Below, in pieces: positions 60,436 through 64,000 of a stretch of 64,000 nt of DNA; the stretch's first letter is position 1; each line of letters begins with the position of its first letter. Under the pieces are notes generated by a model that did not search any database, was not told where the DNA came from, and saw nothing but the letters and a program-made list of their open reading frames with translations. The DNA comes from a virus. The stretch spans positions 1-64,000 of the IMG/VR virus record IMGVR_UViG_3300022756_000004; one strand, 5' to 3'. A program made the position numbers and the translations under genes.

Positions 60436-60699
60436 GTGGCTGAACCAAGGGTGAACGGAATTCGGGTTTACTTCAACGATGACGAAGTAGAGGCCATTAA
60501 AGATCTGGCTGAGGGAATGAGTATCTCGGATAGTTCCGCCATCCGGTATATGATGACGGTAGGATTGAATGCTCTGCGACATGCGCAACGGGAGCCGGTT
60601 AACCTGGACGTGGCGAATGCCTCGGTCCTGGAGCGACTGACCACTGCGATGAGCGAGCCGGGGGAGCGAAATAGGACGCCGATTCTGCGGTCGGCTTAG
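60436..60699 (+). CDS. ribbon-helix-helix (CopG/Arc-like) regulator
   Basis: 87 aa from GTG 60436, AGGAG seven bases upstream. A beta strand IRVYFNDDEVEAI then two helices (DLAEGMSISDSSAIRYMM, GLNAL) in the first 50 residues fit an RHH DNA-binding dimer, which binds palindromic sites. The C-terminal 35 residues are unlike known partners. The 12-bp inverted repeat directly upstream is a natural operator. Confidence 0.65.
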   Translation: MAEPRVNGIRVYFNDDEVEAIKDLAEGMSISDSSAIRYMMTVGLNALRHAQREPVNLDVANASVLERLTTAMSEPGERNRTPILRSA

Positions 60700-60734: not shown

Positions 60735-63629
60735 GTGGGTGATTTGAAAAATGTCGGCAATGACGGCGACAATGTTAGAAACATGATTAGTGTGAAGCCC
60801 TTCCGGCTCACAGCCTTGGAATACCATCGACGAGGATGGATTCCCTTTCCCCTGCCCCCACGAGATAAGTTTCCTCCACCAGAAGGCGCGACCGGTAAGA
60901 AGAATCCTGTCCCCGAGGATCGACTGGAACGTGTCACAGAGTATCTGGCTGACGGTTTCCAAGCTCGGGTGGACGGTCGTCCGCAGCACTTTGAAGCGGA
61001 CGTATGCAACATCGGTCTCCGCATGGATCACAGCGTCATAGGTATCGACGTGGACCATTACGAGGCCAAGCACGGAGCGGATGAATTGGCCGCTCTGGAG
61101 AAGAAACTCGGGAAACTGCCCGTCACCTGGACGTCTTCCGCCAGGACGGACGGCCATTCCGGTATCCGTTTCTTCCGTATCCCGAATAAATATCTCCCAG
61201 GTAGTAAGCTAGGCGGGAAGCACGGCTTGAGTTTTAGTGGTAAGGCTGCCAACGCTATTGATGTGGTGCAGTACAGCCACCGTTACACTGCGGCCCCTCC
61301 AAGCTACCACCCAGACGTACAGGCCGAGTACCGCTGGTTTGCGCCGGGCGAGCCCCTTGATAAAATCCCCAGCGGGTATCGGGTAGAGATCAAGGCCGTC
61401 TCAGAACGACACGAGCGCACCGAAGGTCCTCGGGATAAGTCGGTTGAAGGATATATCGCAAGTGGATATGGTGCGACCGTACGGTTCCTTGAGGAAAAAA
61501 CCAGCATCAAAATCCCGTACGTGGAAGAGCTGCCCGACCTGCCGGAGGCTTGGGTTCTGTTCTTGTCTCGAGGTGGGATCCGGGATGATCTCAAGGCTCG
61601 GGACATCACCTCCACGGAACGGGAGCTGCTCTCCTGGGCCGCAAAGAACTTTCCGGGTGGTAAGTCTGCGGCTCCATGCAAGACGGTCCGTAAGGCTGCG
61701 GAGACGCACAAGGAGCGGATGAAGACCGGTGAATCTTCGCACGACAAGATCGTGGAGATGCACTGGAATATCTACAACTATGCGCTCGAAGGACATCGCG
61801 GTGCTCTGCTCACTTCCGCCAGGCTAGAGAAACTGTGGACCCGTACAGTTCTCAAGGGCAACACCGTACACGGACAGAAGCGCCATCTCACCGAAGCCAG
61901 CGGGGAAATCTTCCGTAGCCGAGTGGAAGCCCTTCGCAAGATCAAGGGTATGGCGGATGAAGTCTTCGAGGACGGAGGCAATCCGTTCAAGACGGGCTGC
62001 ACTTGCCATGATCAGGAGGAGACTCAGCGAGAACTGGAACAGGCTGGCATCCCCAGCGGTATCGGTCAGATCCGAGATCTGGAGGAGTATGATCATAGCG
62101 ATCGGGGCCGAGGCGAGATGTTCCGGGACATGTTCACCGCCGAGCGAGTCAAGGTAGTGGGCAGCGGCGATACCTCCAAGTGGTTCTTCTGGAAGCTGGA
62201 CGGTACTGAGTTCGGCTGGCGACAGGATAACGATCTGGCTATGCGCCTCGTGGAGGCAATCTCCAAGGCGTATAAGACCAAGTATACGCAGCTTCTCCAG
62301 AAGTATCGCGAGCAGGTGGCCGCAGATGATCCCGAGGCCAAGCTCACCGGGGGCGAGATGCGCAAGTATCGCCAGCTCTACGAGAGCGCGGGCAACGCAG
62401 CTACGATCAAGAACTGCCTCACGATGCTAGGTACTCTACCCGATATCCGAGTGGAGGATACCTTCTTCGATCATAAGCCGCATCTCCTGGGCTTTGATGA
62501 CGGGGTGGTCGAGTTGCTTCCCGGACAGCCCTGGAAGTTCCGAGACAAGACGTTTGACGATCGTGTGAGTATGTCCGTCGGACGCCCCTTCATCGGCAAA
62601 AGCCTGCGGGAACTGGCTGCGGTTAAGGATCCCGGCTACTTGGCTCTTCTGGATTATCAGAAGACCTTCGTCCCAGACCTGGAGCTGTGGCATTTCGTAC
62701 AAGCCATCCTCGGATATACCCTGTATGGCGGAAATCCCTCTCGTCAGATTTACTTCTTCCATGGTGAGTCCAGTACCGGTAAGTCCATGCTCGTGAATGC
62801 TCTGCAGAAGGCTCTCGGGCCGTATGGCGCTAGCTCGAATGGCGATGTCTTCAACGACAAGGACGGTGGCCGCAACCCGGAAATCATGAAGACTCGGGGC
62901 AAGCGCCTCGTTCAGTTGCCCGAGTTCGGTGACGGACACTGGATTACGAACGACAGCCTCAAGCGGCTGGCCTCCGAGGATATCCTCTCGGTTCGTGATA
63001 ACTATGCCAAGAGCGATCAGATCGTAGAGTTCCAGCAGACCGCTACCTTCATTGGACCGACCAACTCAGTACCTCGAATCAATGGTATCGACACGGCGGT
63101 TAAGCGCCGCATCGTGGCGGTGCCGTTTGACGAGGTAATGCCTGATTCACAACTGGACTTGGACAAGGCCAATTTCTTGGCTACGCAGGGTCGAGATGCA
63201 GTAATCGCATGGGCTTTGGAGGGCTGGAACGCCTATTCCGCCAGTGGGGGAGGAGTGCTTCGGTCCAATAATTGGCCGCGCGTAGTGACGCAACGCACCA
63301 AGGAATTCATCGGGGAGATGTCCTCGATCGGTGAATTCGTGGAGGATTACATCAAGGTCACGGACAAGCCCGAGGACAAACTGTACGCAAAGTTCGTGTT
63401 CTCTCGCTATCTGGTGTGGGCAGACGAGCAGGGAATCCACGAAAGCAAGCGCATGGATCAGCGTAGGCTGTCGCGGGCTATCGCAGACTTCACCGGAAAG
63501 AAAACTCAGACGGTGAAGAACGGTAAGTCTGTGGAGCGTGGATGGAGCGGAGTTCGTCTCACGGGTGGTAATCCTAAGGTGCAGGGAAGGGGTTTCGAAG
63601 TAATCTCTGAACAAAGTACTGAGAAGTAA
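60735..63629 (+). CDS. primase-polymerase / SF3 helicase (D5-like)
   Basis: 964 aa from GTG 60735 (ATG 60783 also possible). N-terminal PrimPol domain: D105-V-D107 in IGIDVDHYE, then TDGHSGIRFFR with the conserved His. Middle helical part. C-terminal SF3 helicase: Walker A HGESSTGKS near 675-683, Walker B-like RLVQLPEFGDG, sensor strand TATFIGPTNSVPRI and Arg finger region AVKRRIVAVPFDE. It primes and unwinds at the phage origin. The heptamer array follows immediately. Confidence 0.93.
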   Translation: MGDLKNVGNDGDNVRNMISVKPFRLTALEYHRRGWIPFPLPPRDKFPPPEGATGKKNPVPEDRLERVTEYLADGFQARVDGRPQHFEADVCNIGLRMDHSVIGIDVDHYEAKHGADELAALEKKLGKLPVTWTSSARTDGHSGIRFFRIPNKYLPGSKLGGKHGLSFSGKAANAIDVVQYSHRYTAAPPSYHPDVQAEYRWFAPGEPLDKIPSGYRVEIKAVSERHERTEGPRDKSVEGYIASGYGATVRFLEEKTSIKIPYVEELPDLPEAWVLFLSRGGIRDDLKARDITSTERELLSWAAKNFPGGKSAAPCKTVRKAAETHKERMKTGESSHDKIVEMHWNIYNYALEGHRGALLTSARLEKLWTRTVLKGNTVHGQKRHLTEASGEIFRSRVEALRKIKGMADEVFEDGGNPFKTGCTCHDQEETQRELEQAGIPSGIGQIRDLEEYDHSDRGRGEMFRDMFTAERVKVVGSGDTSKWFFWKLDGTEFGWRQDNDLAMRLVEAISKAYKTKYTQLLQKYREQVAADDPEAKLTGGEMRKYRQLYESAGNAATIKNCLTMLGTLPDIRVEDTFFDHKPHLLGFDDGVVELLPGQPWKFRDKTFDDRVSMSVGRPFIGKSLRELAAVKDPGYLALLDYQKTFVPDLELWHFVQAILGYTLYGGNPSRQIYFFHGESSTGKSMLVNALQKALGPYGASSNGDVFNDKDGGRNPEIMKTRGKRLVQLPEFGDGHWITNDSLKRLASEDILSVRDNYAKSDQIVEFQQTATFIGPTNSVPRINGIDTAVKRRIVAVPFDEVMPDSQLDLDKANFLATQGRDAVIAWALEGWNAYSASGGGVLRSNNWPRVVTQRTKEFIGEMSSIGEFVEDYIKVTDKPEDKLYAKFVFSRYLVWADEQGIHESKRMDQRRLSRAIADFTGKKTQTVKNGKSVERGWSGVRLTGGNPKVQGRGFEVISEQSTEK

Positions 63630-63640
63630 AGGATTAAATT

Positions 63641-63727
63641 ATGGACGCGGATAGGGTAACGATGGGTAACGATGGGGGTAACGCGGTGCGCGTTACCCTA
63701 TCTGCGCAGGTGGGGGCATGTTTTTGA
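63641..63727 (+). CDS. 28-aa ORF inside the repeat array (doubtful)
   Basis: ATG 63641 after AAAGGATTAAATT, stop TGA 63727: MDADRVTMGNDGGNAVRVTL and eight more. Its sequence is dictated by the GGTAACG repeats, so it is probably fortuitous. Confidence 0.15.
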   Translation: MDADRVTMGNDGGNAVRVTLSAQVGACF

Positions 63728-63939
63728 GCCCTGGTAACGCGGTAACGCTTAACGGCCCTACCTTCTCTATATACGTAATACGTAAGGCCCTATACGAGGT
63801 TCTTAGGGTTGTATTTTCCTCACATGCGTATAAGTACATCGTTACCTCGTTACCTCGTTACCAAGGGGGTCGAAAAGGCTTCTACCAGGGGATATGAGGT
63901 AACGATGGCATCGTTACCAGGGTAACGCTCATCGTTACC
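63655..63939 (+). repeat. iteron-like array of 13 GGTAACG/CGTTACC heptamers
   Basis: GGTAACG starts at 63655, 63665, 63677, 63733, 63741, 63898 and 63921; its complement CGTTACC starts at 63691, 63840, 63848, 63856, 63912 and 63933. Three reverse copies are spaced exactly 8 nt. The array lies directly after the primase-helicase gene, with an A/T-rich central stretch (63760-63838). Candidate replication origin or operator cluster. No supported gene from 63630 to 64000. Confidence 0.75.
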
Positions 63940-64000
63940 ACAAAAGTTCGATAGCCAGAATAAACATCGGAATAGCCTGTTTACCAGGGTATATGTATGA

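Follow-up and report, generated by a model that had tools for sequence, protein, structure and literature searches.

A heptamer array directly downstream of a primase-helicase gene is a probable initiator-linked iteron replication origin in an actinobacterial phage

Satellite phage P4 has iterons at ori plus a separate crr site, and in the SaPI layout iteron sets flank AT-rich DNA. The SaPI helicase initiator reads iterons placed directly downstream of its own gene by means of its C-terminal domain (PMC7581432). SaPI Rep of the SaPI5 type, in which primase and helicase are found in one protein, and SCCmec Cch2 are the closest known systems to the locus described here. In Sulfolobus pRN1 the required origin region is also located directly downstream of the prim-pol/helicase gene (PMC4234260). 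Two proteins of eukaryotic viruses, C962R of African swine fever virus and D5 of vaccinia, share this primase-helicase architecture. The tail of C962R forms a winged helix that was likened earlier to the P4 origin-binding domain (OBD) and to RFX1, while the available part of that text describes no comparable iteron origin for these eukaryotic virus proteins (PMC10516667). The phage locus analyzed here shares with SaPI a D5_N-type helicase initiator and multiple short repeats directly 3′ of its gene (PMC7581432), with P4 alpha the presence of primase, helicase and a C-terminal winged-helix domain in one protein, and with pRN1 ORF904 a prim-pol/SF3 protein preceded by the gene of a small DNA-binding protein. 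It differs from SaPI in belonging to a tailed phage of actinophage type rather than to a staphylococcal island, in its different, fast-switching heptamers and in that its origin is putative. P4 differs by its iteron sequence and by not having a single array as found here, and pRN1 has a 100-nt stem-loop as its origin instead of iterons.

The window, i.e., the whole stretch of DNA that was analyzed, spans bases 1–64,000 of a virus record that is 67,214 bases long. Its genes code for a terminase large subunit, portal, major head protein, endolysin, exonuclease, Sak4-like protein, DNA polymerase, MazG-like enzyme and ThyX-type thymidylate synthase. The proposed initiator combines a primase with an SF3/D5-type helicase, as assigned by Pfam (Prim-Pol, E 1e-17; D5_N, E 1.9e-6), by PDB profiles (D5, C962R and 7ola) and by a model of the helicase part, and it matches PHROG 1156 DNA primase (E 8e-138). 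The helicase profile match to 7ola (“DNA primase”), which we take to be the SaPI5 protein, has an E value of 9e-19. The first-pass annotation had counted by eye seven forward and six reverse copies of the heptamer GGTAACG/CGTTACC at positions 63655–63939, including a triplet spaced by 8 nt. An exact count gave the same 13 copies and the triplet is present (Table 1). The first copy is found 25 bp past the end of the primase-helicase gene, which is thus directly upstream as initially reported, and the array is fully contained in the gap between this gene and the next ORF (start near 63993). Seventeen copies exist in the window, 13 of them inside the array. The expectation of about eight copies put forward in the first-pass annotation was too high because 100 dinucleotide shuffles of the window had a mean of 3.7 copies and a maximum of 9. 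The complete record contains 19 copies, 13 in the 285-bp array and six scattered, with no equal density elsewhere; this is the sole such heptamer array of the record. No one-mismatch copies were found within the array.

Table 1. Position and basis of assignment of the features found at the primase-helicase locus (window numbering; n+ and n- give the start and strand of individual copies).
Feature	Position	Strand	Detail	Basis
Small ribbon-helix-helix-like protein gene, just upstream of primase-helicase	60436-60699	+		Fold by eye only
Prim-pol/SF3 primase-helicase, proposed initiator	60735-63629	+	964 aa	Pfam, PHROG, profile matches
C-terminal winged-helix domain, proposed heptamer reader	63330-63626	+	Residues 866-964	AlphaFold2 model, covariation
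Forward GGTAACG copies	63655, 63665, 63677, 63733, 63741, 63898, 63921	+		Exact match
Reverse CGTTACC copies	63691, 63840, 63848, 63856, 63912, 63933	-		Exact match
Left iteron set, 6 copies	63655-63747		63655+, 63665+, 63677+, 63691-, 63733+, 63741+	Exact match
Second element GCGCAGGTGGGGG	63704-63716	+	Core GCAGGT	Recurs in the corresponding gap of relatives
AT-rich spacer between the two sets, proposed unwinding region	63748-63839		GC 0.41	
Right iteron set, 7 copies	63840-63939		63840-, 63848-, 63856-, 63898+, 63912-, 63921+, 63933-	
Inverted pair CGTTACC-AG-GGTAACG	63912-63927		Reads CGTTACCAGGGTAACG	Matches X-box consensus GTNRCC(0-3N)RGYAAC

The six- and seven-copy iteron sets face each other across a 92-bp spacer whose GC content (0.41, against 0.564 for the window) is equalled or undercut by 0.4% of the 92-bp windows. 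The AT-rich DNA that had been described as adjacent does exist and sits mainly within the array. Counted from the center outwards, the start-to-start steps are 8, 42, 14, 12 and 10 in the left set and 8, 8, 42, 14, 9 and 12 in the right one, and the strands of the two sets are mirrored for the most part. Shuffling of gaps and strands gave 2.5 expected mirror pairs for the 5 observed (p 0.012). GC skew, proposed initially as a check, gave no support: it is uninformative because it is positive almost throughout the window, without a switch at the array. No Rfam match was found in 63000–64000.

The gap carries other elements as well. The density of GCAGGT, the core of the second element, is 3.42/kb in the corresponding gaps of related phages versus 0.50/kb elsewhere (~7×). 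The element is found in the same gap of 29 of the 39 related loci introduced below (1–5 copies per gap, in both orientations), in most relatives in the form CGCAGGTAG or CGCAGGTCAG; GCATGTTTTT comes after it in the window, where the element also gives a terminator signal in a scan. Positions 63883–63896 and 63982–63995, 99 bp apart, form a 14-nt direct repeat (TACCAGGGGATATG / TACCAGGGTATATG), and the next ORF starts where the second copy ends. The closest relative (L010; see below) conserves both sites well.

A DNA-level search of the phage collection yielded no match and protein-level relatives were therefore used. A protein search found relatives of the primase-helicase in 904 phage records, and an alignment search of viral contigs identified 80 loci with homologues. 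For the majority of the closest full-length homologues, no 7-mer cluster of the locus is denser than the one within 500 bp downstream of the gene. Heptamers vary by phage (TGTAGCG, GGTAACC, CGTAACC, CGGTTAC, GCGGAAC, CTGAAAC, ATTACGG, AGTGTAG, GGTAGTA, GGGGACA and GTACCGA, among others). Thirty-nine loci were selected after an initial array survey, leaving out groups without an array and most of the distant matches. An array 3′ of the gene exceeds all other windows of the locus in 33 of these 39 loci, a proportion that is not an unbiased frequency because of this choice. Three features on which the loci were not selected characterize the 33 arrays, with p-values that are optimistic because the loci are related to each other: 31 have the two inner repeats on opposite strands (p 6.5e-8), the median spacing of these repeats is 103 bp (IQR 91–113), and in 32 the spacer has a lower GC content than the locus. 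Exact mirror symmetry, considered as a general rule, was significant in only 5 of 23 arrays. Opposite orientation and constant spacing of the inner pair are thus general, and full mirror symmetry is not. Homologous primases with no clear array directly 3′ of the gene were found in the Cluster D phages Troll4 and Gumball, in most of the L043–L057 group, and in L017 and L110; the origins of L017, L110 and L043–L057 may be elsewhere or of another form. Dense arrays of other heptamers (e.g., CTGTCCC ×13, AAGGTAC ×13) occur in the distant relatives L080, L090, L076, L070 and L099–L101, at other distances from the matched part of the primase.

The closest relative found, L010 (IMGVR_UViG_3300021412_000003), has a primase 82% identical to that of the window phage. 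Searches with a terminase-like protein and with a conserved flank pattern had this contig as the only match. The array of L010 is in the same place and, in the aligned gap, the two-set layout is kept, while the heptamer itself is switched: GGTAACG is absent and ten TGTAGCG/CGCTACA copies are found instead. At least seven aligned copies share the identical two base substitutions between the window phage and L010. Such a concerted change is characteristic of a sequence that one protein reads. The C-terminal domains of the two phages differ at 22 positions, among which T924S, T926M, K928R and V933T are located in the predicted wing region. Substitutions in this region may set heptamer specificity.

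The likeliest reader of the heptamer is probably the C-terminal winged helix of the primase-helicase, the protein part singled out when covariation was analyzed as the first-pass annotation had suggested. The similarity of repeats correlates with the distance between C-terminal domains in a Mantel test of 33 loci (r 0.25, p 0.0005), and the correlation holds after controlling for each other protein part. No repeat correlation was detected in this test for the AEP (primase), middle or SF3 parts. The signal survives dropping Lambovirus or the close pairs, not both together; since it vanishes when all close clades are left out, covariation is claimed only for recent divergence. Natural chimaeras are found among Gordonia phages, where the repeats GTAACCG and GGTACG are mutually exclusive. 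As far as about residue 330, Erutan and Zany are 95–100% identical; beyond it Erutan is closer to Jalebi and Alyssamiracle, and its repeats are of the Jalebi type (GTAACCG). Xenia2 is 75–88% identical to Jalebi up to about the same residue and 73–97% identical to Zany beyond it, and has the Zany-type GGTACG. Mosaic Gordonia phage primase-helicases (L102, L104, L106, L107 and L108) have their exchange point near residue 330–345, between the primase domain and the remainder of the protein. If the primase-helicase is the reader, these chimaeras locate recognition within its C-terminal two-thirds. They do not separate SF3 from the C-terminal domain, as both were exchanged together, and they are also compatible with linkage because the exchanged parts moved with the adjoining gap. 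Covariation and chimaeras agree on C-terminal recognition, with a signal that rests on few clades and that linkage could also produce.

The C-terminal domain is the part nearest to the array, so that linkage alone could cause the two to travel together and would yield covariation with the nearest gene end. The repeats could then be bound by a host protein or by an unrelated phage protein acting in regulation, packaging or at a terminator region. In the window record the gap is bordered by the replication genes on one side and, after the array, by the gene of a terminase small-subunit homologue on the other, and it contains a terminator-like hairpin. Several observations make this explanation quite unlikely. 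A host factor would not show heptamers switching in concert between close relatives, and the SF3 part adjoining the C-terminal domain has no significant correlation with 6-mers in the Mantel test, which argues against pure linkage. An unrelated binder is also at odds with the array layout, which is that of known initiator-linked origins, and with the origin-binding-type fold of the C-terminal domain.

Ribbon-helix-helix proteins can bind arrays of ~7-bp sites. The array might accordingly be an operator cluster controlling transcription or copy number through the ribbon-helix-helix-like protein encoded upstream of the primase-helicase; many related phages have a gene for a small protein ahead of the primase, in two cases annotated as ribbon-helix-helix, and in pRN1 a transcriptional repressor is encoded upstream of prim-pol (PMC4234260). 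The protein of the window phage has no significant Pfam or PHROG match. As a reader of the repeats it was rejected because protein or recognition strand is unchanged where the repeats differ: the upstream proteins of Jalebi and Gibbin are identical, yet the repeats of these two phages are the mutually exclusive GTAACCG and GGTACG, and the window phage and L010 share the putative recognition strand NGIRVYFND despite the changed heptamer. Several array-bearing phages carry an unrelated small protein at the upstream position, and a sigma-70 scan of the gap detected no promoter-like site. We therefore regard an operator cluster as very unlikely. A phage centromere (parS-like) or other partition site is highly improbable, for although centromeres too typically have clustered direct and inverted short repeats, a scan of 30 proteins from the window and its flank detected neither ParA nor ParB, and the array follows the replication enzyme across phages. 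The repressor-operator or centromere array named as an alternative in the initial annotation is thus less likely than an origin.

The last 99 residues of the proposed initiator are predicted to form a winged helix (AlphaFold2 model m9bbb74ec51f3, mean pLDDT 83). The best fold match of this domain is RFX1 on X-box DNA (Foldseek E 9e-4; superposition with Z 10.0 and 2.0 Å over 74 residues), followed by RFX5, the ASFV PrimPol tail and the P4 origin-binding domain (1ka8, Z 7.0). In a sequence-profile search of the PDB, RFX5 (E 0.001) and RFX1 (E 0.007) were the only plausible matches. The domain of the window phage does not reach the curated cut-off of Pfam RFX_DNA_binding (PF02257), and Pox_D5 appears below cut-off; the domain of the related phage Indlulamithi passes the RFX_DNA_binding cut-off (29.5 versus 27 bits). 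The X-box consensus is GTNRCC(0-3N)RGYAAC (PMC5752003), and GGTAACG contains the RFX1 half-site (RGYAAC/GTNRCC). An X-box half-site is present in 11 of the 33 arrays and in 6 of 25 distinct heptamers, versus 0.9% of random heptamers, an enrichment that is suggestive only because the heptamers overlap in register and ancestry. The likeness in fold between such tails, P4 and RFX1 was known earlier for C962R; the half-site overlap is added here. RFX proteins are stand-alone eukaryotic transcription factors, unlike the multidomain phage primase-helicase, and the shared site preference is either inherited or coincidental. Homology of the phage origin-binding domain and the eukaryotic RFX domain, with a retained preference for the GGTAAC/GTAACC half-site, is a tentative proposal that we find rather doubtful.

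An iteron origin tied to the primase-helicase, as proposed in the first-pass annotation, is the best-supported reading of the array. Neither of the two outcomes named there as contradicting it was observed: the heptamer has no equal density elsewhere in the record, and the closest relative with the same primase does carry an array, albeit of a switched heptamer. We assign a probability of about 84% to its being an initiator-linked origin of the SaPI/P4 type in an actinobacterial phage, an assignment made from sequence because layout, position and covariation fit it. Short repeats are located directly downstream of the initiator gene (13 heptamers here, arrays in 33 of the 39 chosen loci), iteron sets flank AT-rich DNA in the window as in 32 of 33 arrays, and the model predicts an origin-binding winged-helix fold at the initiator C-terminus. 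The origin belongs to a known kind, and its own features are the rapidly switching code and the RFX likeness. We infer heptamer binding, hexamer loading, unwinding and origin firing as follows. Each heptamer would be bound by a C-terminal winged-helix domain. Occupation of both sets would lead to loading of SF3 hexamers at the spacer, likely two in a head-to-head arrangement, and ATP hydrolysis would open the spacer. The N-terminal primase could then prime the opened DNA for extension by the phage DNA polymerase. The heptamer would serve as an identity code by which every phage copies its own genome.

A literature search found no description of these actinophage arrays, which does not prove that none exists, and no origin annotation is present in the record stretches examined of the primase-helicase relatives. 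The array provides a concrete, testable origin candidate for many of the 904 phage records with a relative of the primase-helicase. The heptamer switch and the chimaeras make a good system to study joint change of initiator and origin specificity, and the same phages are suited to the question of what prevents one phage from firing the origin of another during co-infection. The resemblance to RFX, in fold, in half-site and weakly in sequence, provides a link between a viral origin code and a eukaryotic regulatory code that can be tested. If the proposed homology is true, the ciliary and immune X-box code and a viral replication-origin code would share an origin, and within phages this code would diversify quickly as a replication identity tag.
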